A stretch of 64,000 nt of DNA from a virus, in the IMG/VR virus record IMGVR_UViG_3300017769_000001, positions 62,001 to 126,000 of that record. One strand, given 5' to 3'. The notes under the pieces are model-generated. The model searched no databases and had not been told where the DNA came from. It saw nothing but the letters and a program-made list of their open reading frames with translations. Both the position numbers and the translations under genes were made by a program. Position 1 is the first letter of the stretch, and each line of letters begins with the position of its first letter. Positions 9,049 through 64,000 of the stretch are shown piece after piece.

Positions 9049-10035
9049 CAGCTTTTTATCGAACAGCTGGCGAACACGAGTGGTGATCGCTTTGCTGACC
9101 TTATCAGTGTCGCGATGCTGGGCCATTGGAGTGGCGTTACGCGACAAAACGTGCTCACTGATGGTCTTGATCAGGGTGAGACCAGAACCGGCCTTAGAGG
9201 TGTCTACAGACGCCTTGCAGGCACCAGTGATTTCTTCGTTCAGATCTTTCGGAAGTTTGGCGTCTTCCAGAACGTTGGAAAGGAGCGCGTAGATGTCAGT
9301 CTCGCTGAACTCGCCATCGGCGAGGAACTTGACGTATGGAACGATTTGACTGTTCCACGTATTCGCAATCGATGCGACGGCTGCGTTGAAGTTCACGATT
9401 TCAGCTTTCGCGCCGTTCGTATGGCGAACACGGAAGTTGAACCCGCTCTTTCCAGTATCCGTAAACAGCAGTGGTTGCCCATCGGCTGAAACCGGAATAA
9501 CCGACATCGAATGGTTTGAGGATTTGTCCAGAGACGTCTTCAAAACGATTTCCATGTGATAGCCGTCAACAGACTCCAGAGTGGCGGTGTCGATGTCTTC
9601 AACACGAACCCGCAGCTGCTGAGAACCGCCATTATAGGAGTTGTACACATAAGTCGGCTTCGACTTCGTACTCTCCAACATCTTCTGGAGATTCTCGTAG
9701 ATCATAGCCGGGGCGACAGCGGCATAATAGTCGCTACACGGCGTCAGTGCCTTCCACTCGTTGTCGTTGTTGCGGTCGACCATAACCATGTAATACTGGC
9801 CGTCACGACCACTCTCAGTGACGTACGCACCGTGCATGATCTTGTCATCGCCGTATGTCGCAGTGGCGAGTCCGTTGTCGTCGTAAGCTGGCTCGTGCAC
9901 CATGATCGGCGTTACTGCAATGCCCATCTTCACGTGGTTGATTGCTGCTTCCCACGCCTCTTCTCGACTGCAATTTGCAGTGTCGATGACAGTGACGTCC
10001 AGATCAACTTTTTCGAATTTGCGTTCGTAAGCCAT
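9034..10035 (-). CDS. Hypothetical early protein, 333 aa
   Basis: Begins MAYERKFEKVDLDVTVIDT. The ATG at 10035 is chosen because AAGG precedes it and a promoter lies 32-60 nt upstream; longer frames would read through that promoter. Residues 1-230 look mixed alpha/beta, followed by a helical C-terminus (NVLEDAKLPKDLNEEITG and on). No recognised domain. It is a single-gene unit between its own promoter and terminator, so it is probably well expressed early. Confidence 0.75.
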   Translation of the reverse strand: MAYERKFEKVDLDVTVIDTANCSREEAWEAAINHVKMGIAVTPIMVHEPAYDDNGLATATYGDDKIMHGAYVTESGRDGQYYMVMVDRNNDNEWKALTPCSDYYAAVAPAMIYENLQKMLESTKSKPTYVYNSYNGGSQQLRVRVEDIDTATLESVDGYHMEIVLKTSLDKSSNHSMSVIPVSADGQPLLFTDTGKSGFNFRVRHTNGAKAEIVNFNAAVASIANTWNSQIVPYVKFLADGEFSETDIYALLSNVLEDAKLPKDLNEEITGACKASVDTSKAGSGLTLIKTISEHVLSRNATPMAQHRDTDKVSKAITTRVRQLFDKKLKSLN

Positions 10036-10066
10036 GATTCTTACCTTTTTGATGTGTTCGAAGTAA

Positions 10067-10095
10067 ATACTAAAGACTTTCGAGGTGAAAGTCAA
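10067..10095 (-). promoter_or_regulatory. Early sigma70-like promoter
   Basis: On the minus strand TTGACT (10090-10095), 17 bp and TAGTAT (10067-10072), upstream of the gene starting at 10035. It shares TTGACTTTCACCT with the promoter at 947-975. Confidence 0.65.
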
Positions 10096-10144
10096 CTTAC
10101 AAATAAAAAATATCGAAACTTTCGTTTTAAAGTTTACTTTCAAT

Positions 10145-10170
10145 GAAAAGGGGGAATTATCCCCCTTTTC
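10145..10170 (-). terminator. Terminator after rIIB
   Basis: A perfect 10-bp stem (10145-10154 with 10161-10170), G/C-rich in its inner half and ending in four A-T pairs, follows the rIIB stop. The T-run is short because it lies within the stem. Confidence 0.65.
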
Positions 10171-10171
10171 A

Positions 10172-11152
10172 TCAGACCTTGCCAGTTACTTCTTCGATAA
10201 CCTTGTACTTACAGACACGAGCCTTGGCGTTATTGTAATCGACCGGAATCGACACGAAGTCAGCAGGATCGACCAGAACCTTGACCACCCGAGAGCCGTT
10301 GAATTGTGACAGGTAGCTCTTTGCACATACGTGGTATCCGCGAGAGCAAGTCTGATGCTTGTCGGCGTTGACTTCCCAGCGGGGCATGTATGGCTCCTGA
10401 CCGATGGAGTTGTCAACCGTGTTCGAATGGCAATCCTTCCAGTTTTCGCGAATCTTCTTGAAAGCGACAACCATACCGTCGTCGTCGATCTCGATGTCGT
10501 TGTGCTGGAGGAACCCGAACAGCTGCTGTACCGAATCCTTTGAAGGATTTTGGTACAGGCGATCAGTGAACTTAACAAGACGGTTCAGACCACTGTCATC
10601 ATCAGCCCGTGCTGCTTCGATCAGTCGATCCCCCAGATCGGCAGAGATAACACGACCGGAATAGCGAACAACACCAGCTTTAGTGTCGACTTCAACGCGC
10701 CCACGCGTCAGCTTGATGAACTGTTCCTTTTCAGAAATCATTTCAAAAGCAGCCTTCAGCTGATCTTGCGTTGGCTTCCCTTGACTTTTCAGGAGATCGG
10801 TTACGATCTTATCAAACCGAGGATCGGTGTTCTCCAGATTCTCGGTTTCCTTTTCAGAGCCGGTGATCTTGCTGATTGACAGGAAAGAACCGGTCAGGAT
10901 GAAGTTGAACTTTGAACTTTCATCAACAACGACAGGGTCTTTCTTCGCTGGACTCTTCTTTGCACTCTTCCGGTGCTTCTGCTTCTCAGGGGTCTTAACT
11001 GCGATTGCCTGACCGCTTTCACGGTGGTGCTGAAGCGCACGGCGAACCGTACGCTCGGAAGTGTTCAGGATGCCTGCGATTTCAGAAACAGTTTTCCCGT
11101 TCTGAATCTTCAGCTTTGCAGCACGAGCCGCGATGTTTTTGTATACAGCCAT
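10172..11152 (-). CDS. rIIB: RIIB-like protein
   Basis: The C-terminal part (about residues 205-326, containing QLFGFLQHNDIEIDDDGMVV and the conserved GYHVCAKSYL segment) matches the T4 RIIB family. The N-terminus carries a helix-turn-helix segment (GKTVSEIAGILNTSERTVRR, about 19-38) and a Lys-rich linker (about 55-75). At 326 aa it is slightly longer than T4 RIIB. RIIA and RIIB act together at the membrane in T4-type phages, preventing premature lysis in hosts carrying RexAB-like exclusion; the biochemistry is unresolved. It follows rIIA by 33 nt in the same operon and ends at a strong hairpin. Confidence 0.88.
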   Translation of the reverse strand: MAVYKNIAARAAKLKIQNGKTVSEIAGILNTSERTVRRALQHHRESGQAIAVKTPEKQKHRKSAKKSPAKKDPVVVDESSKFNFILTGSFLSISKITGSEKETENLENTDPRFDKIVTDLLKSQGKPTQDQLKAAFEMISEKEQFIKLTRGRVEVDTKAGVVRYSGRVISADLGDRLIEAARADDDSGLNRLVKFTDRLYQNPSKDSVQQLFGFLQHNDIEIDDDGMVVAFKKIRENWKDCHSNTVDNSIGQEPYMPRWEVNADKHQTCSRGYHVCAKSYLSQFNGSRVVKVLVDPADFVSIPVDYNNAKARVCKYKVIEEVTGKV

Positions 11153-11185
11153 GATTTTCTCCTAACTTTGAATTTGGTTCAGTGT

Positions 11186-13309
11186 TCAGACATTAAAGCC
11201 GTTTTTGCGACAGAAGTCAACCATCTTGATGATCTTTTCTTGGTCAGAAGTCAGACCGTAGCTCATGATACAGCTAACCACCAGATTGTTGTAGATTGAT
11301 TCGACCTTTTCAATCGCGTCGACAAAATCCTTAACTTCGTCCGTGCAATGACCTTCCCATTCCGCAAGCAGACCAGTAGTGTCGTCCGAAGGCCGTCCGA
11401 CAATGTAATTGACAATGTCATCGACATTGCGGACGTAATCTCGGTACTTGTCAACTACCTTTTCACATTCCGGGTTGTCACCATATTGTAGGTATTTTTC
11501 GATACTCGAATCACGCAGCTTTGGGTTTGCTTTGTCTGCACGGATAAAGTAACTATCGAGAGCCATCATCTTCATGATGTCAGATTTTTTCGATTGCAAA
11601 AACTGCTTCAAAACAACATCATATCGAGCGAATCCGGCTTTCTTGATTTTGTTCTTGTTGTTTGCGGTTTCAACCACGTATTGGATGTCATCGCCGAAGA
11701 TAGACGGGACGAAGTAGCGATCATAGTCTACCAGATCGGAAGTGATTACCAGAGTCTTTTTGATGTCATAGACTCTGTTATCAGCTCGTGCGACCGATCC
11801 GCTCGTCTGTACAACCCGACCATAGATGGTTTCATCCGACTTCGTGCTGGTGGCTGTTCGGTTCGAACTCACACGAACTTTCTTGACTTCATTCTTGATG
11901 TCGGAAAGCTTGACATGCTTAATGTCTCGCCCGATACGAGCAGACAAGCGGCGAACGAAGTTTTTGCTTACCTCCCCTTCACGCTCACGGATAAGAATCA
12001 TATCCTTCGACAGACTGTGCAGCTTGATGTAACGATTAACGTTCGTCTTAATACCAGACTCACTCAAACCGATATCGTTCTCAACCAAAACTATAGAGTT
12101 GTATTTCTGGTAGCTGCTTTTGCAGAGTTCATTATAAGACAGCCGTTTCAGATATACTGGACTGCGCTTATAAATGCCAGCAGGAGTTGTCCGAGTAACA
12201 CTTGCAGACAGCCCATTCACAGACACGCCGAGGTTCTTGAACTTGTAAACATAAAGTCGCGTTCCGTTATAAGTGAATGTGCTGTACTTGCTGTTTTGTA
12301 GTGACGGAACCTCCGCATCCAAAATGTCCAACGCTTCAGTCCAGTTGGAAGCCGCAGAGATTTTATCCTGAATTTCTTGTTTTACTTTTTCAACAATATC
12401 ATTCACTCGGGCAGTAAGCTTTTCTTCAGTACCTTCAACCATCGAAAGCATTTCACGCGGAGCCGCCGGTTTCAGTTCTCCGTCTTCAAATGGGATGACA
12501 ATGGAGTCATCACCCACAAGCATACGGAAGAACGCACTTTCGCAGTCACGAACGACAGAACTGGGATACGGATAGATGACATTGTTCATCAGCGCGTACA
12601 CCCGATGACCGCTATACAGGCGAGAGTCTGAGAATAGTGACATTCTGGCGTATCCGCGCTCTTCAAACTGATCAAACGCGTCGTTGCAACGCAGGTTGAA
12701 ATCCTCACGACCGTGAATGATTGGGCGAGTCTTGAAGAAAGAAGCGACCGTCATTGTCTCGTGATAGAATTTATCCATGTCCTGTTCTTTAACGGGTACA
12801 CGAACCTCAACCCCATTACCGCGAGTCGTCGGTTGTTCGTGGATCAGTTCGATCACCGGCATCCCATCTTCATTGATCAGGGCAGCATACGTCCGAGTAA
12901 CACCGTCATAGTGAGCAACCACTTCGAAAGCATCGGTATACGCGAATGGAGTTTTACCGCCAATCCCGAAACCACCAGTTAGCTTGGCGGACTTGGTTTT
13001 GGTGGATTTGAACGCAGCCGCGAACACTGTACGAACACCAGTGTCGTCCAGACCAATGCCGTGATCGATGACAGAGAACACTTTGTTGAAGCGGTTTGGC
13101 AGTTGGATTTCAAAAGGAACATCCATCTTTCCGGCGTCGATGTGTGCGTCATTGGCGTTGCAGCAGATTTCGCGAACGATGGCAGCAATCTTGTGTTCAT
13201 AGATGCCGTCGAAAATGATGTTATACGCGGCTGCATTCATTTCTGCATCGAACGCAGTAGCGTTCGTGCCTGAAGTCATTACTTGACGTCCGAATTGGTC
13301 GAGTTTCAT
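11186..13309 (-). CDS. rIIA: RIIA-like protein with GHKL ATPase fold
   Basis: The 707-aa protein begins with a GHKL ATP-binding region: N-box NANDAHID (51-58), DHGIGLD (82-88) and GGFGIGGKT (112-120). This is the known architecture of T4 RIIA, which is of similar length (about 725 aa). The rest is a long, mostly unassigned region with basic segments. It is directly followed by rIIB, as in T4. It probably binds ATP and acts with RIIB at the inner membrane. The upstream gap contains a long inverted repeat (13358-13393). Confidence 0.9.
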   Translation of the reverse strand: MKLDQFGRQVMTSGTNATAFDAEMNAAAYNIIFDGIYEHKIAAIVREICCNANDAHIDAGKMDVPFEIQLPNRFNKVFSVIDHGIGLDDTGVRTVFAAAFKSTKTKSAKLTGGFGIGGKTPFAYTDAFEVVAHYDGVTRTYAALINEDGMPVIELIHEQPTTRGNGVEVRVPVKEQDMDKFYHETMTVASFFKTRPIIHGREDFNLRCNDAFDQFEERGYARMSLFSDSRLYSGHRVYALMNNVIYPYPSSVVRDCESAFFRMLVGDDSIVIPFEDGELKPAAPREMLSMVEGTEEKLTARVNDIVEKVKQEIQDKISAASNWTEALDILDAEVPSLQNSKYSTFTYNGTRLYVYKFKNLGVSVNGLSASVTRTTPAGIYKRSPVYLKRLSYNELCKSSYQKYNSIVLVENDIGLSESGIKTNVNRYIKLHSLSKDMILIREREGEVSKNFVRRLSARIGRDIKHVKLSDIKNEVKKVRVSSNRTATSTKSDETIYGRVVQTSGSVARADNRVYDIKKTLVITSDLVDYDRYFVPSIFGDDIQYVVETANNKNKIKKAGFARYDVVLKQFLQSKKSDIMKMMALDSYFIRADKANPKLRDSSIEKYLQYGDNPECEKVVDKYRDYVRNVDDIVNYIVGRPSDDTTGLLAEWEGHCTDEVKDFVDAIEKVESIYNNLVVSCIMSYGLTSDQEKIIKMVDFCRKNGFNV

Positions 13310-13357
13310 GTTACTTTTCTCCAGTCAGTATGTTACAGGTATTCTTTAACTTTGACT

Positions 13358-13393
13358 CGAAGTGTGCAAGCAGTCGTATCTTTGCACACTTCG
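13358..13393 (-). promoter_or_regulatory. 12-bp inverted repeat upstream of rIIA
   Basis: Perfect 12-bp arms (13358-13369 and 13382-13393) flank a 12-nt loop in the 101-bp gap before rIIA. There is no U-tract. A palindromic operator, or a hairpin ending the methyltransferase transcript, are both possible. I could not place a convincing promoter for rIIA here. Confidence 0.5.
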
Positions 13394-13410
13394 AAGTAAA
13401 TTGCAAACTT

Positions 13411-13941
13411 TTATTTCAGAGTTTCATCCAACCAAACGATACATTTGATGAATTTCACTCCATTGGAGTGTTGGATTGTGACGTCACCAAAGACTTCTCG
13501 ACACTCGTCAAGATACGACTCCAGAGGCATACGATTCTGCCAGCCATCCCGAGTTTCACCCGCTTGGGATGACCCGTCTCCAGCATAAACAGTGATCACG
13601 ACATAACCACCGTTGCGCATCATTTCTCTCGCTTGTTTGAGAACCGAAATTCTCTCTTCACGATCTTTGATGACATTAAGCACGTTGCTGATAGTCGTCA
13701 CGTGCGGTGGATGTCGTTTCAGCAATTCCAGACAAACTTCATTGGTAAGTCTGGGTTGGTTGTGGGGGTCATAACCGAAGTATGCGAATCCATTATCCTC
13801 GCACCACTGCTGGAACTTTGCAGGTTTTCCGCAGCCAAGATCGAATACTCGCGGTTTGGTGACTTCACCAAAATTCAACACTGACAACGCATGGCGAATC
13901 TTGGGTAACTGGTTTCTTGCTGTTTTCTTTGAATCAATCAT
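13411..13941 (-). CDS. Class I SAM-dependent methyltransferase-like protein
   Basis: The 176-aa product has motif I VFDLGCGKP at about residues 32-40, an acidic second strand (YFGYDPH), and a post-I region with NVLNVI similar to DNA/small-molecule methyltransferases of the 7-beta-strand fold. The ATG at 13941 has AGGTG upstream and avoids overlap with the gene before it. The substrate is not evident: no DPPY/NPPF motif is visible, so base methylation is not supported by sequence. Early operon. Confidence 0.75.
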   Translation of the reverse strand: MIDSKKTARNQLPKIRHALSVLNFGEVTKPRVFDLGCGKPAKFQQWCEDNGFAYFGYDPHNQPRLTNEVCLELLKRHPPHVTTISNVLNVIKDREERISVLKQAREMMRNGGYVVITVYAGDGSSQAGETRDGWQNRMPLESYLDECREVFGDVTIQHSNGVKFIKCIVWLDETLK

Positions 13942-13952
13942 GGTAGCACCTG

Positions 13953-14309
13953 TTAACGAATGTCCCAGCAATCTGACGTACTCTTGTCAACTTCCAGAAC
14001 GTATGGCTTCAATTCGGATTGAATGCGTTTCGCTTGCCTGATTCGGCAGCGATCGCTGTCAGTACAAGAAATCAAGCCGCTTCCTAGACGATAGTAGACG
14101 TCCAGCAGCTCGGCGTCATTCCGGATTTCAATGACAGTCTTATTCCGCTCCAGAATCTGATACGTATGGTGTTCTGGACTGATGACATTCGGATGCGTTG
14201 GATCGGCTTTGAACTCGGCAACGGCATCCCAGTATGCCGGTTCTTCGGAATCACTGAAAGTTTCAATGAAATCGGCAGTAGCCTTGACTTTGATAGGATA
14301 GTTGTTCAT
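13953..14309 (-). CDS. Hypothetical early protein, 118 aa
   Basis: Begins MNNYPIKVKATADFIETF and ends DKSTSDCWDIR. Mixed alpha/beta, no recognised domain. Its ATG overlaps the stop of the upstream gene by 4 nt. Confidence 0.65.
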   Translation of the reverse strand: MNNYPIKVKATADFIETFSDSEEPAYWDAVAEFKADPTHPNVISPEHHTYQILERNKTVIEIRNDAELLDVYYRLGSGLISCTDSDRCRIRQAKRIQSELKPYVLEVDKSTSDCWDIR

Positions 14310-14563
14310 ACCTTTTCCCTTTTCTGACGAATGTACTCTTTGATAACAGCAGAAACTGCTTCAGTCACGTCCCTGCCGTCTTTATCTACCGCGTACAGAA
14401 CGGAACCACACTTGTTATCAGCCGGAACCGCACGGATGGCGATGAATGCGCGACCTTTGCTGTTACGGACGTGATCAACACTATATCCGCGAATGACGTT
14501 GATAGTCGCCCTGATAACTTCACGGCGCACTTTCGGATGATTCAGTGACGTTTTAGTGATCAT
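14306..14563 (-). CDS. Hypothetical early protein, 85 aa
   Basis: Begins MITKTSLNHPKVRREVIRAT. The ATG at 14563 is chosen because the same promoter-leader cassette also precedes genes at 16329 and 17694, and in both the cassette ends at the corresponding ATG; the upstream ATG at 14587 lies inside the cassette. Basic and compact, possibly KOW/KH-sized, but no family recognised. Confidence 0.65.
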   Translation of the reverse strand: MITKTSLNHPKVRREVIRATINVIRGYSVDHVRNSKGRAFIAIRAVPADNKCGSVLYAVDKDGRDVTEAVSAVIKEYIRQKREKV

Positions 14564-14642
14564 ACCTTTCCCCTTTCCAACTTTCATTTCAAAACTTCAC
14601 TACGTGTGCCACTGTATCAACAATGGCACCGATAGTCAAGTC
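14561..14642 (-). repeat. Early promoter cassette, copy A
   Basis: About 80 bp nearly identical to 16327-16412 and 17692-17771. On the minus strand it holds TTGACT (14634-14639), a 17-bp spacer and TACAGT (14611-14616). A GTGCCA...TGGCAC palindrome overlaps the spacer and -10, and a GGAAAGGGGAAAGGT ribosome site leads directly into the ATG at 14563. Confidence 0.8.
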
Positions 14643-14647
14643 TCCTG

Positions 14648-14833
14648 TTAAACTTTTCGAGTAATCAGGTTTGCGTTGCGAACCCGCTCACACACGGACT
14701 TGCGACCGTTCTTCATACCCTTTCGGGGGATGACGACGTCAGTATAGCCGTTCGGAGCATTCAGCGGAGAATCCGCATACTTGCCAAGCGGGTACACTTG
14801 TTCACCAGTAGATTTCAGTACGACTTGTTTCAT
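14648..14833 (-). CDS. Hypothetical early protein, 61 aa
   Basis: Begins MKQVVLKSTGEQVYPLGKYA and ends NANLITRKV; basic. Its ATG overlaps the stop of the upstream gene by one base. No family recognised. Confidence 0.55.
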   Translation of the reverse strand: MKQVVLKSTGEQVYPLGKYADSPLNAPNGYTDVVIPRKGMKNGRKSVCERVRNANLITRKV

Positions 14834-15159
14834 TACAGTTTCCCCTTCATTTCTTCATAACGACAGCCGCCATACAGCTGCCCGTTCGCTTTAACGCTGA
14901 TCAGTCGATCAACGCGGAATCGCTTGTGCTTTCCGGTTTCGGAGAATGCTCCGAACTCAGACATTGTAATCGTGTTCTGTTCACGATCATAGTTCAATTT
15001 GGCTCGACCATTGCCAGTTTTTCCTTTCTGGATTGTCTTGTTGCCAAACTGGCCGTTCATCTTTCGGATAGAGCCATCTGAATTGATGAATGTCACAGTG
15101 AACATACGACCACCGCGAATCACATCAAGCACCTGTTCACGAGTTTTAAGAATTTTCAT
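14833..15159 (-). CDS. Small beta-barrel (SH3-like?) early protein, 108 aa
   Basis: Begins MKILKTREQVLDVIRGGRMF. The segment FTVTFINSDGSIRKMNGQFG followed by further basic strands resembles small SH3-like phage proteins (DUF2693 type) that carry a K/R-DGxxRxMNxR pattern; this is a weak resemblance from memory. Strongly basic, so RNA or DNA binding is plausible. Confidence 0.6.
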   Translation of the reverse strand: MKILKTREQVLDVIRGGRMFTVTFINSDGSIRKMNGQFGNKTIQKGKTGNGRAKLNYDREQNTITMSEFGAFSETGKHKRFRVDRLISVKANGQLYGGCRYEEMKGKL

Positions 15160-52163: not shown

Positions 52164-54371
52164 GTGGCAACAAATAACGTAACAAATTATGATTATCAAG
52201 ACCTGAGATCAAGAATTCAGGAAAAGCTGAAAAATAAACAGGGCTGGGGTGATGGTTATGAGTCTACTGTTGGTCAGATCCTGATCGATACACTCGCAGA
52301 TGCGGCTGATAACCTCTCATATATGCTTGAGCGTCGTTCTCAGGAGAGTTTTCAGACAACCGCACGCCTCCGTTCCTCTGTTGCTTCACGTGCCTCTGAG
52401 CTTGGCTACAGAAGCCGTAGAGCATCAGCAGCAAACGGGTATGTCACACTTCGTCTTGTTGACGAAAGCGGTGTTGCCAAGCCTGTAGCCGCTGGTGGTG
52501 AGGTTGTTATACCCGAAGGCACTCCGATGACATTCGATGATGAAGCATTTTATACGACTGCTGAATATATCATCGAAGAAGGCATGTCAGAAATTGAGAT
52601 GGCTGTTTCTCAGGGTGTTGTTGAGACATTGACATTCAACCCGGCTACTGAAGAAACGTTCACTTCCAGTCAGTACATTCTGATTCCGGATTATGAATAC
52701 ATCGACGAAAACAGCATTGTGGTTATTTCCGAGGGTATTGAATACCGGGACGTAAAAGAACTCGACCAGCAGGATGGTATTGGGATTGGTGCTTTGTCGT
52801 TCGCCGGGGTTCGCACCCAAGACGGATCCAGTGCTTACTATGACATCCGATACGCACATGACGGTATGCGTATCCAATTTGGTGATGATCTCTTCGGTAG
52901 AACACCGGAAGCCGCCATCACAGTAACCATCGTTCGTACGAAGGGTGAGCAGGTTCGTGTTCTGTCGGTCAACAACGAATTCAGATTCGGGTTTGACACA
53001 TTCAGTGATGGTATTAACGTAACACCACCGAACGAATACGAATACCTGATGACTAACAACACACAGATTGTTGGTGGTCGTGCTCCAGAGACGCTGGAAG
53101 AGATTCGTACGAATGCTCCGCTGTTCATCACAACCAACAACCGAGCTGTTTCACTTGATGGTTACGGTTACTGGGCACGTCGTTCGAATATCGGTGGTAT
53201 TATCGACTCACGTGCGTTCGCAGAGAGTGAAATTGATACCCTGCTGTACAATATCAACAACGTTTACATCGCATACCTAACAGAAACCGGTGTTGAACTT
53301 TCTGTCCAACAGAAACAGGATCTGATTGATTTCATCAAAGAGCGCGACGTTGCACTGGCGCATATCGTCCCTCGCCCTGCTTCTGAAATTCAGCTGGGGA
53401 TGGATTTATCTGTAAAAAGAAATGCAGAGCTTCAAATTGCACCGGAAGATCTCTACCTGATTATCCGTGCATATATCATGGAGTACTACAAGCGTCGTGA
53501 AGGATCCATCGGTATCGAATACCAGAAGTCCGATTTTATCAGGGATGCATATAATTTGCAGACTCGGGTTGCCGGTGTTGATTATAACGTCGTCGATTTT
53601 ATTGACGTCGATATTTTCGCGTACCAGATTGCCGAATACCCACTGGAAGTGAACGACTGCTTGATTCGTCTGAGAAACGACGGAGCTACTGCGCAGGTTG
53701 GTGATGAATTCACTCTGCTGATTGATAACACCCCATACACAGTAACCGTTGAAGCAGATGACCTCAACACCGGGGAATTCTACGTAAACATGCTGTTCAA
53801 AATGCGCGATTACCTGTACACGGTAACCGAGCTGATCTCTGCGGTTAATGTGACCACTGATGGTGTGAATAACGAATTCATTCTTCAGATCAAAACTCGT
53901 GATGGTCTGGGTGGATTCAGAATTGATACAAACGCCGGGGATTTTGCAGCAGACACCATCGTAAACTTCAAGCTGCAAATCCATCCGAAGATCTTCAACA
54001 ACGAGTTTGAGGATATTCTTCTCCGTAACGGTGTGTACATCACAGATTCCAATGGCGATGTTCTGTATTACGACAACGGGGAAGGTTTCTGGGTTGATGC
54101 AGATACTGGCGACATTATCAATCTCGATCCTCAGAATACCGGTGGTGGTTCTGGTGGTGAAGCAGAAATCCCAACTCAGATGATCGACTACATTACTGCG
54201 AACCTTACTCTGCCGACATTGCCTACTGGCACGTATTACGTGAAATACCGTCAGGATAAGTATGAGAACTTCAAAGCAAACAGTGCGACGGCGGTTACAC
54301 TGATTCCACCGAAGGAAGAATACGATGATGTTGCAGAGACATTCACGAAAATCAATCTGATTCCGGTGTAA
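52164..54371 (+). CDS. 6: Baseplate wedge protein gp6-like (gpJ family)
   Basis: The GTG at 52164 has GGAGG upstream. The 735-aa protein begins with the gpJ/gp6 pattern: QILIDTLADAADNLSYMLER followed by a Ser/Arg-rich stretch. The middle part (RIQFGDDLFGRTPEAAITVT; QIVGGRAPETLEEIRTNAPL) is typical of the family that forms the inner baseplate ring. T4 gp6 is 660 aa. Confidence 0.88.
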   Translation: MATNNVTNYDYQDLRSRIQEKLKNKQGWGDGYESTVGQILIDTLADAADNLSYMLERRSQESFQTTARLRSSVASRASELGYRSRRASAANGYVTLRLVDESGVAKPVAAGGEVVIPEGTPMTFDDEAFYTTAEYIIEEGMSEIEMAVSQGVVETLTFNPATEETFTSSQYILIPDYEYIDENSIVVISEGIEYRDVKELDQQDGIGIGALSFAGVRTQDGSSAYYDIRYAHDGMRIQFGDDLFGRTPEAAITVTIVRTKGEQVRVLSVNNEFRFGFDTFSDGINVTPPNEYEYLMTNNTQIVGGRAPETLEEIRTNAPLFITTNNRAVSLDGYGYWARRSNIGGIIDSRAFAESEIDTLLYNINNVYIAYLTETGVELSVQQKQDLIDFIKERDVALAHIVPRPASEIQLGMDLSVKRNAELQIAPEDLYLIIRAYIMEYYKRREGSIGIEYQKSDFIRDAYNLQTRVAGVDYNVVDFIDVDIFAYQIAEYPLEVNDCLIRLRNDGATAQVGDEFTLLIDNTPYTVTVEADDLNTGEFYVNMLFKMRDYLYTVTELISAVNVTTDGVNNEFILQIKTRDGLGGFRIDTNAGDFAADTIVNFKLQIHPKIFNNEFEDILLRNGVYITDSNGDVLYYDNGEGFWVDADTGDIINLDPQNTGGGSGGEAEIPTQMIDYITANLTLPTLPTGTYYVKYRQDKYENFKANSATAVTLIPPKEEYDDVAETFTKINLIPV

Positions 54372-54380
54372 GGATAGGTT

Positions 54381-55874
54381 ATGGCTGAAGAAACAAAAGA
54401 CATGATTGAGGCGGTTAAGGATAACACGCCTGCTGCCTTGAAGAATAATGATCTGATCGATCAATATCTCGATGTGGTGGGTGAGGTATTCGAAGAAATC
54501 CGTCAAGATATCAGGTACAAGTCATTCGAGACTGATTATGCGAATGCCAAGCCTGAGACACTCGTTCGGGTTGCTGCTGACCTTGGGTTCAATCTATCCC
54601 CAAAACTCCGCCCATCTGTCCTGAGACGGATTATACGGGACGCTCAGGAAGTGTTCAGTCGAATGGGTACAAGGGAGTCTCTTGTATGGGCTTTGAAGAC
54701 TGTAGGCTACCGAAGCTACGATATCGACGAAGTCTGGATCCCTAACCCGGATCTACTTCGAATTGGTTACTTCCGTGAACTGAATTCAACTTCAGACCCC
54801 CGTCGATATGAAGTTCGGAAGGGTAGCTATAGTGATTTTGTCGTCGGTGAAGAATATGTAACTGCCCAAGGTACATTCTTCCAAGGGTATGTTTACAACG
54901 ACTTCGAAAAAGGAGAACCGATCAACAATATTCCGATTTACGGTGAGCGGTATTCCACTTACACTGGGCTATCTTTCAAGGATATGGTTAGTAAAACCCC
55001 GTATATCCTCGTTCGCTTGTATGATCCCCCAGAGTATGACGACGTTATTGCTGACACTGATCCGGTGACTGGTGATCCTGTATTTGTTGATATTCAGGAA
55101 AAACAGAGAATCGTAATTAACACGATCAGAACTCTGATTCAGGAATTACAGAGAACGGCAACCACAAAGGTAATTCTGGTTACAGACCTACTTATTTTTG
55201 ATGATCTGATTACTCGGGTTATTGATCAAATCGAATTCACAACATCCACATTTGGATTTGAGTGGGTTGATGAAATTCCTTCTGTGTCTGACACACTGTC
55301 ATTCACCTCCGTTGGCGATCCTCTGAATTTCGTTGATGTTGTTGATGAAATTCTGGATAACTTCCAGCTGACATCCCAGTACGGGGATATTAACTGGTCA
55401 GATGCCGTTGATGTGACGCTTGACAATTATCTGCAAGACGGATCGATCATTTCGGCATACGATTCCCCGTATCTGACTGTTGGCAATAAACTGCCAATCG
55501 GATCTGGATACCCTGTACCTGCAACTGGAGAATACACCGGGTATTTCAAGGTTGGGATTGTTGATAGCTCTGTCAGAGAAATAAATGATGGTGTCCGTGG
55601 TGTTAACGAATCCCATGAAGTTGTTAAACCACCTGCCGGATATGAACACATCGTTTATCTGGACTACAATGCAAATGTCCAATTCACAGCACCATCAGAC
55701 TCGGCTGTTGTTGTGAGAAGAGTCGACAATTACCAATACAGTACGGGTAGTACGACGATAACTACTGTTAACGCAGGTTCGTCGTTCAACCAGAATATCA
55801 CCGACAGTCACGCGCTGATTCTGGAATTCCAGAGTGAGAGTGTTGAAAAGACGGCAATCACAGTTTCTTACTAA
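54381..55874 (+). CDS. Baseplate wedge protein (gpI/gp7-side), 497 aa
   Basis: The N-terminal 150 residues (LDVVGEVFEEIRQDIRYKSF; FSRMGTRESLVWALKTVGYR) resemble tail protein I of P2 and Mu gp48, partner of the gpJ/gp6 wedge. The C-terminal 250 residues are beta-rich with acidic repeats (VDVVDEILDNFQL) and could carry fibre attachment. The position after gp6 is the same as in P2. Confidence 0.7.
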   Translation: MAEETKDMIEAVKDNTPAALKNNDLIDQYLDVVGEVFEEIRQDIRYKSFETDYANAKPETLVRVAADLGFNLSPKLRPSVLRRIIRDAQEVFSRMGTRESLVWALKTVGYRSYDIDEVWIPNPDLLRIGYFRELNSTSDPRRYEVRKGSYSDFVVGEEYVTAQGTFFQGYVYNDFEKGEPINNIPIYGERYSTYTGLSFKDMVSKTPYILVRLYDPPEYDDVIADTDPVTGDPVFVDIQEKQRIVINTIRTLIQELQRTATTKVILVTDLLIFDDLITRVIDQIEFTTSTFGFEWVDEIPSVSDTLSFTSVGDPLNFVDVVDEILDNFQLTSQYGDINWSDAVDVTLDNYLQDGSIISAYDSPYLTVGNKLPIGSGYPVPATGEYTGYFKVGIVDSSVREINDGVRGVNESHEVVKPPAGYEHIVYLDYNANVQFTAPSDSAVVVRRVDNYQYSTGSTTITTVNAGSSFNQNITDSHALILEFQSESVEKTAITVSY

Positions 55875-55886
55875 GAGAGTAACGCA

Positions 55887-56417
55887 ATGAGCAAATTTGA
55901 CGAAACAATGAAACCGATGAAAGGCAAGCTTCAGCTTATTTTCAGAGATCGAAACACTGGTGAAATTCTTGACGTGGAAGACGACAATAACATCTTCCTG
56001 AACCTCGGAATGTCTCAGATGCTTCGTGCAATTACCACACCGGCTCCTTCTGGTGGCGCGGTTCAATACATTCTTCAGGAATTTTCAATCGGTGATGATA
56101 TCGGTAGTGGTTCGCTTCTGAACCCTGAACCAGCACAAGCAACATACACCGCTGCGAACCAGAACGTAGTATATACTGTTCCTTATGCTGATCTGACGAT
56201 CAACTACCCGAACTACTACACTACTGAGATTTCTCTGGTTCTGGATGGTAACGCTGTGATGGCACAATATCCTTCACAAGTCGATCTTCGATTCTCAAGT
56301 GCTGCACTGTACAGCGGTGGTGGCGATCCATTCGCATATCGTCGTTTCCAAACACGTACGATAACTCGTGAGATCACCATCGACGTTAAATGGACACTGT
56401 ACTTCGACGGTCAGTAA
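55887..56417 (+). CDS. Late structural protein at end of the wedge operon, 176 aa
   Basis: Begins MSKFDETMKPMKGKLQLIFR, beta-rich throughout, with aromatic and Thr-rich strands ending TIDVKWTLYFDGQ. Likely a baseplate or fibre connector, because it closes the wedge operon. No named family recognised. A hairpin just after its stop lies inside the convergent terminase gene. Confidence 0.6.
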   Translation: MSKFDETMKPMKGKLQLIFRDRNTGEILDVEDDNNIFLNLGMSQMLRAITTPAPSGGAVQYILQEFSIGDDIGSGSLLNPEPAQATYTAANQNVVYTVPYADLTINYPNYYTTEISLVLDGNAVMAQYPSQVDLRFSSAALYSGGGDPFAYRRFQTRTITREITIDVKWTLYFDGQ

Positions 56418-58045: not shown

Positions 58046-60181
58046 ATGAGCGTTTCAGACAACATTGATTACATTCAGAACGGCGAAAACATTGATGAGG
58101 TTGTTCTGAATCGTCCTTCACAGCAACTAGCGGAGGCACTTGACAGTCTTTCTCTGGCAGATGCCATCAAGAAAGAATCCACTATGATGTTGGACTTCGC
58201 AAACAATGAATATCGTTTGTACGAAGGTGATGATGGGCAGACGTGGCTACCGTTTGAAGAAGTCATGGAAGTTAACCGTGCTTCAGTGGCAACTTATATC
58301 GATGGTACTGGGAGACTACGGTATGCAGGCATCAATGAGAAACGCATTGCTTATGACGGTAAAGATCCGGTTGGCATTCTTGCTGAAGAGCAGCGTACGA
58401 ATTATCTGAGAAACTCCGAAAACTTTCTCGCCAATTGGGGTGCTGGACGCGCATCAATTGAACCATACGCAGCTATCGCGCCAGATGGTCGAAAAACTGC
58501 TGCAAAAATTACCGCAACCGAAAATAACGCATCTGGTTACTATATCTACCAATCTGTGTCATCTCCAAGCCCCGGATCCGACTTCTGTTTTTCTTTCTTT
58601 GTTAAGCCGCAACCGTCTTCAAATTATTGCTTGGCGATTGTTTATGATGGTGGTTCAAATGGTTGCCGTCAGTGGTTTGATCTTGAAAATGGAGTTCCAG
58701 CCACCACAAACGTTTTTGGTGCAGGGTTTTCTGTTATTTCTTCAGACGTTGAATCACTTGATGACGGGTGGTATCGATGCAGTATGGTTGTTACTACAAG
58801 CGGCAGTACAATTCGCCCCCAAATATATCCAACTTCTGGTACATCTCAAGGGCAATATAACGCAGTTGCTGGGGATTATGGTTATGTATGGGGTGCTCAG
58901 TTGGAAGCCGGATCCATCCCAACCAGCTACATCCCATCAACTGATACATTCACCAGCAGGGCATCAGCAGCGACGTATTTTGATTCTGAAGGCATTCTTC
59001 GTACTGCTGGGTACAATGTCGCTCGTGATAATGCTTACGGATTTGATAACCGTGGTCGTATTGTTCCTATTGGACTATTGCTGGAGCCACAAAGAGCTAA
59101 CTTGTTTACGTGGAGTGAAGATGCCACCACCGGCACTGGTACTGTAACCACAATCAATACAAACTCTGCAATAGCTCCAGACGGAACCATGACTGCTGAC
59201 GATATCGTCGACAATTCGACTGGAGAATCTCTATACTGGCAGAAAACACGGTTCGGTGCTACGGCTACAGAATATGCTGCTGGTTCTTATTCTGGATCTC
59301 TTTTCCTCAAAAAGAAAGATGAGAGATATGTTCGGGTAAACTTCCAGATTTATGGGACATCAACTTTCGCCGCAAACCTTGATATTGACTTCGACGAAAA
59401 AACAGTAACTCCAATCGCCGATGCCAAGATCGACTACGAATGGCTTCCGGGTGATTGGGTTCGGGTGTCATTGTTAGTAACAACTACGACAACAAACCAA
59501 TATTGTCGTTTGCTTGTATACCCGGCAATGTCATCTGGAGGATATAACGCGGCTCTGACAGGAGGGGTTTATGTCTGGGGTGCACAGTTTGAAGCTGGAG
59601 AATATGCAACTTCTTACATTCCAACCGAAGATGCCGAGACTACTCGGTCTGCCGACATCGCGAACTCGGCACAGAGCACTCGTATTGTTGATGATGTGAA
59701 GCGTAAACTGACTTCCGAATTTTCTGATAGTTCTGATGCTACCATTATTCTGGAGTTCAAATATTACGGAGTTGATGCTGGTTCATCAGCTTATGGTATT
59801 TTCACTATCGGCGGCGAAGACCCATCTGTAGCCGATGACAGATTCTTCGAAGTTATTGTTGCCGGTAATACGAAACTTCTGAGAATTCAAATGCCCGGTG
59901 CAACACCAGCTTCATACGACATCAGAAATATTCTGTTTGGAGAAACGGTTCGTCTTGCGGTTACTTGGAATTCTCAGGGGTCTGCTGTTTCTATAAACGG
60001 CGAACCAGTGATTACATCAACCGCAACTCCACAATCAATTCAGAAATCGAAATACACTTACATGCGGTTTACTGATCTGATCGGAGAGGCGATTCGTCGT
60101 ACAAACATCGGAATGAAGACTGTGATGTACACTCCAAAGTATACGGATCCTTCAAAACTGAGTGGACTATCGGCGGTGTAA
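58046..60181 (+). CDS. Tail fibre/adhesin with tandem lectin-like modules, 711 aa
   Basis: After a helical N-terminus of about 50 aa come two related beta-sandwich modules. Each opens with a YLRNSE/LFTWSE-type line and closes with VWGAQLEAGSIPTSYIPS (about 283-300) or VWGAQFEAGEYATSYIPT (about 511-528), a signature of carbohydrate-binding modules in phage adhesins. A third sandwich (about 555-711, EFKYYGVDAGSSAYGIFTIG) looks concanavalin/LamG-like. Surface glycan recognition is probable; the ligand is unknown. Confidence 0.75.
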   Translation: MSVSDNIDYIQNGENIDEVVLNRPSQQLAEALDSLSLADAIKKESTMMLDFANNEYRLYEGDDGQTWLPFEEVMEVNRASVATYIDGTGRLRYAGINEKRIAYDGKDPVGILAEEQRTNYLRNSENFLANWGAGRASIEPYAAIAPDGRKTAAKITATENNASGYYIYQSVSSPSPGSDFCFSFFVKPQPSSNYCLAIVYDGGSNGCRQWFDLENGVPATTNVFGAGFSVISSDVESLDDGWYRCSMVVTTSGSTIRPQIYPTSGTSQGQYNAVAGDYGYVWGAQLEAGSIPTSYIPSTDTFTSRASAATYFDSEGILRTAGYNVARDNAYGFDNRGRIVPIGLLLEPQRANLFTWSEDATTGTGTVTTINTNSAIAPDGTMTADDIVDNSTGESLYWQKTRFGATATEYAAGSYSGSLFLKKKDERYVRVNFQIYGTSTFAANLDIDFDEKTVTPIADAKIDYEWLPGDWVRVSLLVTTTTTNQYCRLLVYPAMSSGGYNAALTGGVYVWGAQFEAGEYATSYIPTEDAETTRSADIANSAQSTRIVDDVKRKLTSEFSDSSDATIILEFKYYGVDAGSSAYGIFTIGGEDPSVADDRFFEVIVAGNTKLLRIQMPGATPASYDIRNILFGETVRLAVTWNSQGSAVSINGEPVITSTATPQSIQKSKYTYMRFTDLIGEAIRRTNIGMKTVMYTPKYTDPSKLSGLSAV

Positions 60182-60184
60182 TCT

Positions 60185-60322
60185 ATGAAATACGTAGCAG
60201 CAGAAATCTCAAAAAAGAGTAAGGCAACGGTTCAGGATATCATTGATAAGGTTCCTGACAAATATGTTGATGCTAAAACGCTTTACGAATATCTCGAACT
60301 GAAGCGTACAGGGCAAATCTAA
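60185..60322 (+). CDS. Stand-alone 45-aa copy of the tail-protein N-domain
   Basis: Begins MKYVAAEISKKSKATVQDII and ends LELKRTGQI. It aligns with the first 45 residues of the next two genes (MAKYIVHKLSKNIKATTQDI; MTKYIGSDLTEKIKATTEDV). It comes 4 nt after the fibre gene stop, and its stop overlaps the late promoter of the next gene. It could be a cut-down paralogue or a working attachment peptide. Confidence 0.6.
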   Translation: MKYVAAEISKKSKATVQDIIDKVPDKYVDAKTLYEYLELKRTGQI

Positions 60323-60357: not shown

Positions 60358-61653
60358 ATGGCAAAGTATATCGTTCACAAGTTATCGAAGAATATCAAGG
60401 CAACAACTCAGGACATCGAAAATGGTGTTTCTGGTAAGTTTGCTGATGCTTCTGTTATTGGTGCCTATTTTGAAAATGTTTCAACAGCTGCTCTCGAAGG
60501 CATTGGCGATATTGTCATGCTACGAACAAATCAGAATGCAACGGGTTATCTGAAATGCGATGGTTCCTTATTTCTTGACTCCGAGTACCCGGAACTTGCA
60601 GATCTCTTGAAGAGTAGAGTTGAACAAGGCGTCCACAATCCTTTCACAAGCCAATTGGTATCTGTATCGAATGCAACTGCATCCGACGCTGGAAAGCATA
60701 TTGCAATATCCCGAAACGACGAGTTTGTCGCAGTGACCAACGCGTTTGGCGGCGACCTTCTAGTTTATCAGACATCGGATTGGACATTGTTAAGTTCTAC
60801 GTTAGAGCCTGTTAATGCTGCTGTCAACGCCGTCGAGTTTTCTCCCACGCAGGATATCATGGTGTCAACCAGAAATGGACAGGACGTCACAACTTCAGGA
60901 TTCGCTGTTTACGACACAAACACATGGGCGAGAACCGTCTATAACTTCCCATCGGGATACGAAACAGCTGTTCCTATATATTCGTCGTTCAGTGGCGATG
61001 GTCGCTATCTTGCAATCACCATGGCACTTAACGATACCCTGATCTATGAGACTGAAAATTGGACGTTGGTTCACACATTAACGTCTGGCATCGTATCCCA
61101 GAGAGAATGTTCATACTCTCCAAATGGAATTTATCTGGCAGTCTGCGGCACTAACCCTAACTCCGTAGAAATATACGAAACCTCAGAGTGGACTTTGGTG
61201 GCTTCCGAGACTTACGCCAACGCGGTCGATGCTATTTCATTCTCTCCTGACGGAAGGGAGATCTTCGTATGCTATGGTAACTTACTACAACAATACAGGA
61301 TGGATGAGGGGGCATTTATTCCAGCAAGAATTTACACGGGGAATTACCCAAATTCCGTATCATACGCTCCGGATTCTTCGTATGTATTCACGTCATCAAC
61401 CACAGCACCTTATCTCAATGTGCTGTCGAATCAGGAATACTCCAATTCACTGCCGCAACCGCCAGCCGCTGCTCGTTATGTGAGGGTGTCTCCGAAAGGA
61501 AAGTACGTTGCTTATATCGAGAGTAATTACGGATTGCGAGTTCGTATGATTCAAGAAGACGTTCCTGCTGGTTATACCCGACTGCCAGACTTCCCGATAC
61601 AGAAGCAAGGAACAATAACATTACATCCGATGATCAAAGCCTCCCTGCAATAG
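60358..61653 (+). CDS. Collar plus beta-propeller tail protein, copy 1, 431 aa
   Basis: Residues 1-45 are the short N-domain shared with neighbours. Residues 50-85 (IGDIVMLRTNQNATGYLKCD...YPELADLL) resemble the phage tail collar motif GDI...CDG...YPEL. Residues 95-400 hold WD40-like blades, each with a YETxxWTL strand and an FSPDGR turn (SFSPDGREIFV, ECSYSPNGIYLAVC). The C-terminus (GTITLHPMIKA) returns to a collar-like strand. A receptor-binding or decorating tail part is likely. Confidence 0.7.
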   Translation: MAKYIVHKLSKNIKATTQDIENGVSGKFADASVIGAYFENVSTAALEGIGDIVMLRTNQNATGYLKCDGSLFLDSEYPELADLLKSRVEQGVHNPFTSQLVSVSNATASDAGKHIAISRNDEFVAVTNAFGGDLLVYQTSDWTLLSSTLEPVNAAVNAVEFSPTQDIMVSTRNGQDVTTSGFAVYDTNTWARTVYNFPSGYETAVPIYSSFSGDGRYLAITMALNDTLIYETENWTLVHTLTSGIVSQRECSYSPNGIYLAVCGTNPNSVEIYETSEWTLVASETYANAVDAISFSPDGREIFVCYGNLLQQYRMDEGAFIPARIYTGNYPNSVSYAPDSSYVFTSSTTAPYLNVLSNQEYSNSLPQPPAAARYVRVSPKGKYVAYIESNYGLRVRMIQEDVPAGYTRLPDFPIQKQGTITLHPMIKASLQ

Positions 61654-61654
61654 G

Positions 61655-61662
61655 AGTAAATA
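61655..61662 (+). promoter_or_regulatory. Late promoter
   Basis: AGTAAATA, 28 nt before the ATG at 61690, overlapping the ribosome-site-like AGGAG after copy 1. Confidence 0.65.
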
Positions 61663-61689
61663 GTTTCGTCACGATAAAGTAATGGTGTT

Positions 61690-63027
61690 ATGACGAAATA
61701 TATTGGTTCTGATTTAACCGAAAAAATCAAAGCAACAACAGAAGACGTTCAAAACGCCGTTGAGGATAAATACCCGGACGCTTCTGTTGTTCTTGATTAT
61801 TTCAACAGCGTTCCGAAGAGTCGCCCTGAACAGGTGGGCGATATATTCCTGAATCGGCTTGATAAGTCGACTCCGGGCATGATGCCTTGCGATGGCCGAC
61901 TGCTTCAGAAAAGTCAATACCCGGAACTTGCAGAAATTCTCAAGGACAAGACTCAGACATCATTCCAGTTCAATAACCTAGATGCAATCGCAGGATCATC
62001 CTCTGTGAACGCAGAGGTTCTTTCTATCTCCGAGCGCAGCAACGGTGAATTGGTTGTCTTGTACTCAGCATCTCCGTATATCCGAGTCTTTACTGGTTTT
62101 AACGGGACTGATCTGAACGTTCCTTCACTTCCGGGTATCGGCAGAGGTGGTGCATTCTCTCCAGACGAGAGTATCTTCATTGCTGTTCATAGCGGGTCTC
62201 CTTTCATGACTGTTTATGAAACAGAGAACTGGACAAAGCTAACAGGAACTCCGACACTCCCGCTAACCGGGTACAACGTTTCATTCAATCCAGACGGGAG
62301 TAAGGTCGCAATCGGACATGCCGGTTCCGCTCGAAGAATGTCCGTTTACCTGACAGACAGCTGGACTCTTGATCCGGATGCTCCCATTGTAACCGCTGGT
62401 ACGACTGGGTGGTGTGCCGAATTCTCACCAAATGGTAAGTATCTGGTGGTTGGTTTTGCTGGATCCCCATATTCAGCACTTTATGACGCAGAGACTTGGG
62501 AATTGAAGAGCGAATACACACCGCCTAACGTTGGGTTCGCCGTTTACACTGCAAAATTCAGTAATGATTCTAATGTCCTTTACCTTGGATCCAATTCCGG
62601 AACGAGAGAAGTATTGACAAGACATCTTAAAAATGGTGACCGTCAGGTGACTGGATCTTCGGACGAAGTTTACAGTATTTCTATACACCCGAACGGAGAG
62701 GGGTTTTCATATGGTACTAACTCGGCTCCTTTTACGGCGACCAGATTGTCGTACATGAAAGTTTACGAATTATCGTCGTTGACCCAATCATTTGATGGCC
62801 CAGCACTACCAGACTCGGCTAACATCAACTGGGTTAAGGCAGTAACTGTAAGTAAGGACGGAAATTACCTTTATTACGGACTGTCGAATACTGCTACTGG
62901 GCCTTTCTTCGGAAGGATTACGCTTTACACACCACCTCCGATTGGCACATTCGCGTTGCCGAGGCTACCGGCGGTTCGGTATGGCGACATTTTAGTACAG
63001 CCTATGATCAGAGTGGAGCCTATTTAA
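61690..63027 (+). CDS. Collar plus beta-propeller tail protein, copy 2, 445 aa
   Basis: Same layout as copy 1: N-domain (1-45), collar-like part (VGDIFLNRLDKSTPGMMPCD...YPELAEIL) and repeated blades (AFSPDESIFIAV; FNPDGSKVAIG; FSPNGKYLVVG; FSNDSNVLYLG) with YxxxxWxL strands. It ends GDILVQPMIRVEPI, as copy 1 ends HPMIKASLQ. The copies differ strongly outside the scaffold, as expected for diversifying receptor-binding surfaces. Confidence 0.7.
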   Translation: MTKYIGSDLTEKIKATTEDVQNAVEDKYPDASVVLDYFNSVPKSRPEQVGDIFLNRLDKSTPGMMPCDGRLLQKSQYPELAEILKDKTQTSFQFNNLDAIAGSSSVNAEVLSISERSNGELVVLYSASPYIRVFTGFNGTDLNVPSLPGIGRGGAFSPDESIFIAVHSGSPFMTVYETENWTKLTGTPTLPLTGYNVSFNPDGSKVAIGHAGSARRMSVYLTDSWTLDPDAPIVTAGTTGWCAEFSPNGKYLVVGFAGSPYSALYDAETWELKSEYTPPNVGFAVYTAKFSNDSNVLYLGSNSGTREVLTRHLKNGDRQVTGSSDEVYSISIHPNGEGFSYGTNSAPFTATRLSYMKVYELSSLTQSFDGPALPDSANINWVKAVTVSKDGNYLYYGLSNTATGPFFGRITLYTPPPIGTFALPRLPAVRYGDILVQPMIRVEPI

Positions 63028-64000
63028 TGATTGGCGATATTGTATATAATAGTTTAAACACAAAGAACCGTCTGAAGTGTGATGGTTCTTTACATCGGAT
63101 TTCGGACTACCCGGAACTGGCGTCTTATTTGAGCGACGTAAAGTCATCTTCAATTGATGTGAGTTTTAATGACACCCCGTCTTCTCTATCGCCGAATATC
63201 GGGGTTCCATGGTGTATTGAATTCTCTCCAGATGGAAGTCTTATGGCTGTCGGGGGTGATGCGAACTCAAACTTGAAGATTTATGACACGGCGACTTGGT
63301 CAGTTGTCTCCGGAACTCCAACGCTGGCAAGTGAAGTCCGTGATATTTCTTTCTCCCCCGATGGGAAATATATGGCCGTTGCCATGTATTACTCGCCGTT
63401 CCTTTTCGTGTGCGACACTGAAACTTGGACGGAGATTGACGTAAAGGAGCTATCAAATCAACCAGCATACGTTAGGGGCGAAGGGGTGAACTTCTCTCCG
63501 GATGGCAAATGGTTGATTTACATAGATATAGATTACGTCTTTCAAATCAGAACAGATACATGGACGCATCATGGACTGCTTTCATTGGGGGCAGCTGGTG
63601 ATACATATCGAGGCGCGTTTAGTAATGATGGAAAGAAGTTCGCCGTGTGCGGTAGAAGTACCGCATTGGATCAAGCAGTAATTCACATGTACGACTACAT
63701 TGAAGATGGCGGTTATTTGGAATTCACCCATATGAAAACAAGTTCTACTACCATTCCATTTTGGGGTGACGTCTGCTTTGCGAATGATGACCTTCGCGTC
63801 ATGGCAGTTTACGACAAGTACATCGGTTTTTATGAAACCACGAAACTCACTTACGCTGATGTTGTCGAGGCATTAGGTGCCGTTACATTTGCCAGATTGG
63901 CTCCATTGAATGAAACGATGGTTGCTGTTTCTGCTGCTGTTGATGCGACCGATGATAACTCTGCGGTCATAGCATCAACGATTTCATATTTTGGTGATTC
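63027..64000 (+). CDS. Collar plus beta-propeller tail protein, copy 3, partial
   Basis: The ATG overlaps the stop of copy 2 and has GGAG upstream. The protein starts directly at the collar part (MIGDIVYNSLNTKNRLKCDG), so the N-domain is missing. At least four blades follow (FSPDGSLMAVGG, FSPDGKYMAVAM, FSPDGKWLIYID, FSNDGKKFAVCG). The frame runs off the right edge. Confidence 0.7.
   Translation, partial: MIGDIVYNSLNTKNRLKCDGSLHRISDYPELASYLSDVKSSSIDVSFNDTPSSLSPNIGVPWCIEFSPDGSLMAVGGDANSNLKIYDTATWSVVSGTPTLASEVRDISFSPDGKYMAVAMYYSPFLFVCDTETWTEIDVKELSNQPAYVRGEGVNFSPDGKWLIYIDIDYVFQIRTDTWTHHGLLSLGAAGDTYRGAFSNDGKKFAVCGRSTALDQAVIHMYDYIEDGGYLEFTHMKTSSTTIPFWGDVCFANDDLRVMAVYDKYIGFYETTKLTYADVVEALGAVTFARLAPLNETMVAVSAAVDATDDNSAVIASTISYFGD

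Follow-up and report, generated by a model that had tools for sequence, protein, structure and literature searches.

The 64,000-nucleotide stretch analysed here (the window) covers positions 62001-126000 of virus record IMGVR_UViG_3300017769_000001 (148,739 bp, contig G000:C1; G000 below), and at its 3' end begins a tandem array of genes whose products combine a phage collar domain with a β-propeller. An initial annotation, made from the letters of the window, had described three consecutive paralogues. Consecutive paralogues are indeed present, but open reading frames (ORFs) read past the window edge bring their number to four, with the starts and stops of neighbouring genes almost touching or overlapping (Table 1). 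Each protein is predicted to contain a seven-bladed WD40-type propeller, set inside the collar, and the four are probably host-recognition proteins of the short-tail-fibre type, built on a gp12-type collar with nested propellers as their heads. Propeller receptor-binding proteins are known, as is the collar as a fibre domain; what differs here is that the propeller is nested and present in several copies.

The WD40-like blades named in the initial annotation are borne out. WD40 and PD40 models match the copies with E values as low as about 1e-9, three of the copies scoring above cut-off; full-propeller models reach 1e-15; and a single-blade hidden Markov model (HMM) built from other phages only, with no G000 sequence, recognizes all four copies with E values from 1e-6 to 1e-26. 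Every copy has seven blades, whose mutual similarity lies 6-21 standard deviations above that of shuffled blades. Structure prediction, which the initial annotation had put forward as a check, also returns a propeller. The AlphaFold2 model of copy 4, computed from an alignment of that copy with its paralogues and two relatives, has a mean predicted local distance difference test (pLDDT) score of 70 and a predicted template modelling (pTM) score of 0.74, the propeller blocks reaching a pLDDT of about 70-95. It fits a seven-bladed WD40-type propeller, a fold defined by repeated four-strand blades with FSPDG turns in a closed ring, and its top Foldseek match in the Protein Data Bank (PDB) is the WD40 propeller 5yzv (PkwA, TMt 0.89), followed by the seven-bladed design 7big. 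The latter is a design of the class of WD40-family recently amplified propellers (WRAPs), which belong to the same propeller family by sequence and of which a second design, 7bie, is also among the top PDB matches. WRAPs are set apart by a median internal blade identity above 60% (PMC9218822); that of the G000 propellers is 23-28%, so these are not recently amplified.

The identity of the matches bears on the possibility that the propellers are enzymes of the endosialidase, lactonase or depolymerase type, which degrade or modify a surface polymer. Endosialidases do occur among the propellers of phage tail proteins (PMC4901313), and the copies show weak similarity to the seven-bladed Lactonase family (PF10282). 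However, the top matches are binding propellers of the WD40/THOC3/PkwA type, no conserved catalytic residues are evident among the copies, and the invariant columns correspond to the collar and to structural blade residues. We consider an enzymatic role very unlikely.

The collar-like part was likewise recognized correctly in the initial annotation: the three window ORFs carry (I/V)GDI...CDG...YPEL, and Pfam Collar (PF07484) matches all four copies, with E values of 7e-6, 3e-4, 3e-3 and 0.03. Copy 1 alone scores above the curated cut-off of that family (26.3 versus 24 bits), the other three falling below it. About the first 36 of the 57 profile positions, comprising the N-terminal half GDI..CDG..Y(P)xL, are matched wholly or partly in all four copies; the closing F.LPDl segment is present in the same chain at the C-terminal end, after the insert. 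In ordinary collars CDG...YPEL...F.LPD spans about 50 residues (of 80 loci examined with the motif, most are uninterrupted), and in the four G000 copies F.LP or its equivalent lies beyond some 320 residues of propeller. When the copies are aligned by MAFFT with six uninterrupted collars, the F.LPD of the latter falls on the extreme C terminus of all four. As judged from these comparisons, the propeller is nested within the collar, in the loop between the YPEL helix and the LP strand. The order given in the initial annotation, collar and then propeller, has to be revised to a propeller between CDG..YPEL and the closing LP segment. In a model of copy 2 computed with six uninterrupted collar segments added, residues 50-80 have a pLDDT of 74-90 and the last 35 residues one of 72-81, which makes both collar halves reasonably confident.

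The nesting is clearest in the isolated Salicola phage CGphi29, because two neighbouring paralogues there provide one filled and one empty collar. The collar of SLPG_00037 holds a propeller; SLPG_00038 shares its stem and collar but has no insert. The empty version reads YPELYNVLGTGGSNPPFDPNTEFAVP...YIR and the filled one PELFAIYGIGQKPV[propeller]PFDPQTEFRIP...YIR. The two proteins match at 2e-12 overall by BLASTP, and their closing pieces are identical at 18 of 34 positions (E 4e-8). CGphi29 is like G000 in having a collar with a nested WD40-type propeller, here next to a paralogue whose collar is empty; it differs in its single filled copy, its long N-terminal stem and its annotation as hypothetical. 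The adjoining gene, SLPG_00039 (L177 9016-10083), shows weak similarity to the FGE-sulfatase/C-type-lectin-like fold, which also serves in phage receptor-binding proteins.

The short tail fibre of phage T4, gp12 (1ocy), has the collar domain PF07484 in common with the G000 copies, and a profile of uninterrupted collars matches it at 7.6e-9. In gp12 a short loop of the ordinary kind stands where the G000 copies have their insert: the YPEL equivalent runs straight to LPDMRG, extra sequence follows that point and there is no propeller. The G000 copies, in contrast, have a long insert before the LP strand and a short segment after it. The ends of the nested-collar proteins (HPMIKA, YPVLIQA) resemble the terminal YIIKV of gp12. 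Fibres of the gp12 type are trimers that are fixed to the baseplate by their N termini and bind the receptor irreversibly. Collar homology and gene position make the G000 proteins putative gp12-type short tail fibres, which might assemble as gp12-like trimers on the virion.

The placement in a tail operon proposed in the initial annotation holds for G000 as well as for a syntenic relative, the genes lying in the fibre position downstream of baseplate wedge genes. This relative, the contig G001 (IMG/VR 3300000351_000043), has its baseplate gene order in common with G000: a baseplate J protein 37% identical to that of G000 and then like-sized genes. Comparison between related phages, another check suggested at the outset, revealed both tandem copies and their replacement. 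Directly after its baseplate genes G001 carries at least three tandem collar-propeller genes; the first two encode 443 and 506 residues, and the contig ends within the third. In L075, which like G001 comes from a metagenome, the DNA from the baseplate genes through the first collar-propeller gene to about codon 50 of the second is 99.6-99.9% identical to that of G001. Beyond this point, G001 continues as a collar-propeller protein, whereas L075 continues as a KSGDTMTG fibre with a glycine-rich head (Gly_rich_2, 2.7e-14). At the level of sequence the difference is a domain exchange behind a fixed anchor. The ~40-residue anchor with which the second and third G001 genes begin is found again at the start of the LamG tail protein of G000 and of a gene of L078 (z scores of 5.5 to 9; 5.5 for the G000 protein against the two G001 genes). 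Together with the collar homology to T4 gp12, the distal swap behind this anchor supports the interpretation of the proteins as receptor-binding tail fibres.

The same observations bear on whether the proteins are instead intracellular WD40 scaffolds, acting for example in counter-defence, that lie beside tail genes by chance. WD40 propellers are commonly protein-binding scaffolds, and an anchor is absent from copies 3 and 4; yet the collar domain, the gene position behind the baseplate genes of two syntenic lineages and the exchange with a tail fibre render this explanation extremely unlikely.

The initial annotation had also envisaged a diversified receptor-binding set. In agreement with this, the propellers have diverged far more than the collars (28-31% identity among the four G000 copies, versus 44-56% for the collar half), and the set varies between near-identical phages. 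Diversification driven by a diversity-generating retroelement was considered and set aside: the 148.7-kb G000 record, which may be incomplete, contains no RVT_1 match.

If the proteins are host-recognition fibres, the collar, with the N-terminal domain in copies 1 and 2, would be the conserved part that mounts them at the tail tip. The two ends of the propeller would exit side by side from the YPEL-LP loop, so that the collar could still close behind it, and the nested propeller would be the binding head, exposed and diverging fast. A phage might carry several heads that differ in surface and exchange them over time, each copy perhaps binding a different ligand, a glycan or a protein of the cell surface. 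Lineages might, in addition, trade whole distal parts, propeller against glycine-rich fibre, behind the conserved anchor. Copies 3 and 4 may be mounted through copies 1 and 2, or else through a different tail protein. The array probably gives the virus interchangeable grips for host-cell recognition. Such a modular scheme for alternative recognition heads, with a conserved collar frame, an exchangeable nested propeller and several tandem copies, is directly testable, because filled and empty collars adjoin in an isolated phage and a natural swap distinguishes near-identical ones.

Several observations weigh against this interpretation. Copies 3 and 4 are without a stem or anchor of their own by which to reach the virion. 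A window-rank splice test is supportive for copies 2 and 4 and several relatives, with a weak result for copy 3 and a negative one for copy 1; by itself it is weak, no more than suggestive when the selection among C-terminal windows is taken into account, and hmmscan scores of artificially joined collars rise only slightly. The first AlphaFold2 model, that of copy 4, has the collar below a pLDDT of 50, confidence in this domain having been reached only after collar rows were added to the alignment. The swap is seen among relatives of G001 and not in a sister of G000, and, as both contigs concerned are metagenomic, an assembly error at the breakpoint is possible. Lastly, the G000 propellers are nearly as distant from one another as from those of G001 (about 25-29% identity, G001 first copy), and for this reason diversification by selection cannot be separated from old divergence; the divergence would fit head diversification, old divergence or separate acquisition equally well.

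Propellers of the same family also interrupt tail proteins in other phages. In L007 (IMG/VR 3300009134_000007) two neighbouring tail genes (9800-11284 and 11466-15002) contain three WD40-type propellers: one interrupts tail tubular protein A, whose flanks, when joined, match 126 phage records as a contiguous piece, and a phrog_376 tail protein is interrupted twice. Their median blade identity is 86%, above the WRAP threshold, and in contrast to those of G000 these blades are freshly amplified. A phrog_376 protein of L063 also carries a propeller, as does a tail-tip J-like protein of L013. The propeller behaves as a promiscuous add-on domain because it is inserted in several unrelated virion proteins. 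Its occurrence in proteins of the tail tube, tail and tail tip hints at an accessory module of virions, with a habit like that of phage immunoglobulin (Ig)-like domains. By extension, the G000 propellers might be accessory surface modules that adhere weakly and in a general way to glycans, mucus or particles, as virion Ig-like domains do, the array adding avidity and not host range. However, the propellers of G000, G001 and CGphi29 are in the fibre position, within a collar known from receptor-binding tail fibres, and at a fixed anchor the propeller is exchanged for a glycine-rich fibre. An accessory role seems to us rather unlikely, and host-recognition heads remain our preferred reading of the array.

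The collar loop, in turn, is occupied by other inserts elsewhere. In L114 (2835-5672, - strand) it contains BNR/Asp-box-like repeats, judged by eye; L093 (7452-12389, - strand), from a 247-kb phage, has three tandem collar genes in which this loop holds long inserts of another kind; and in L109, L117, L138 and L144 inserts of ~400 residues at that loop are closed by WLPxIxSDGxPAYIKA. The chances are about even that the collar is a general socket, whose YPEL-LP loop takes propeller-like modules of several families, and that the WD40-type propeller is independently a promiscuous plug-in for exposed loops in many tail proteins, its blades in some cases freshly amplified and nearly identical. The families concerned would be the WD40-type in G000, G001 and CGphi29, the BNR/Asp-box-like in L114, and other repeat-like modules in L093 and in the group of four loci.

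The initial annotation regarded propellers in a row at the end of a tail operon as unusual; as such, propellers are no rarity in phage receptor-binding proteins. In Staphylococcus aureus phage phi11 a β-propeller is the presumed receptor-binding part of the baseplate protein Gp45 (PMC4901313). Propellers also occur in the putative receptor-binding proteins PRD1 P2 and PhiKZ gp131, the C-terminal domain of the latter (4GBF) being seven-bladed and located at the baseplate periphery (cited in PMC4901313). The phi11 propeller differs from those described here in that it has five blades, is flanked by a coiled-coil stem and a tower domain, is encoded by one gene and is neither WD40-type nor in a collar. 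For PhiKZ gp131 and PRD1 P2, compared by description and not by sequence, PMC4901313 reports no collar nesting or tandem paralogues. We found no propeller nested in a phage collar in tandem copies in the open-access literature; subscription papers were not covered, and this is therefore no proof of novelty.

Further relatives were sought by several routes. The IMG/VR relatives of the G000 baseplate J protein were found with an alignment, none with a single sequence. Copies 1 and 3, used singly in tblastn, gave no match in the phage collection, where copy 4 found only a free WD40 protein; copy 4 had no match in IMG/VR. No bacterial carriers were found in genome contigs with a single-protein query. 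The nearest isolates by terminase are the Alishewanella phages Slickus01 and Slicko01, and the 45-kb stretch of Slickus01 examined contains no such propellers.

Table 1. Features of the collar-propeller locus and of the swap loci. Positions are those of the window unless another locus is named; for genes running past its end, window-equivalent coordinates are given.
Feature	Position	Strand	Description
Baseplate wedge / baseplate J-type protein (phrog_219)	52164..54371	+	Upstream tail context, synteny marker
497-residue and 176-residue tail genes	54381..56417	+	By position and size, the two genes directly upstream of the G001 collar-propeller array
711-residue tail protein (phrog_5939; LamG-like C terminus)	58046..60181	+	Opens the fibre array
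45-residue ORF	60185..60322	+	Only the N-terminal domain common to copies 1 and 2; stops at would-be collar start
Copy 1 (P0001, 431 residues)	60358..61653	+	N-terminal domain and split collar with nested seven-blade WD40-type propeller (predicted)
Copy 1 collar, first half (IGDIV...CDGSLFLDSEYPELADLLKS)	60502..60615	+	Pfam Collar, E 7e-6
Copy 1 propeller insert, seven blades	60631..61551	+	Blade HMM, blade self-similarity; boundaries approximate
Copy 1 collar, closing half (VPAGYTRLPDFPIQKQGTITLHPMIKASLQ)	61561..61650	+	Alignment with uninterrupted collars; weak case in splice test
Copy 2 (P0002, 445 residues)	61690..63027	+	Layout as copy 1
Copy 2 collar, first half	61834..61947	+	Pfam, alignment; model pLDDT 74-90
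Copy 2 collar, closing half (PPIGTFALPRLPAVRYGDILVQPMIRVEPI)	62935..63024	+	Splice test, alignment; model pLDDT 72-81
Copy 3 (P0005, 400 residues)	63027..64000 in window, end 64229	+	Cut by window end
Copy 4 (P0006, 387 residues)	64231-65394 (G000:C1 126231-127394)	+	Outside window
Swap loci	L075 15696-16799 vs L073 375-1895		One tail-fibre gene, abrupt divergence after codon ~50

In copy 3, whose start overlaps the stop of copy 2, the collar stands right at the start, without the N-terminal domain. That domain is present by itself in the 45-residue ORF ahead of copy 1 (z scores of 8.9-10.6 against copies 1 and 2), which may be either the relic of a further, fifth copy or a small separate protein. 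Upstream of the array lie contractile-tail genes, sheath and baseplate wedge among them, and, on the opposite strand, the terminase; downstream come a candidate permuted papain-like amidase and then more fibre-like genes. An adjacent pair of paralogues in L002 (13682-14971 and 14996-16309), with the common N terminus MA(S/N)TS(E/Q)SP.S.TQNYTIPV, probably represents a further family of fibres on this tail. Elsewhere in the record, a UvsX/RecA-like recombinase (L003 5312-7252, G000 about 139311-141251) has a P-loop (GESG...TGKT) apparently split by an intein-like insert of ~300 residues; a profile of the PhoH family, which itself probably has a similar insert, matches this region.

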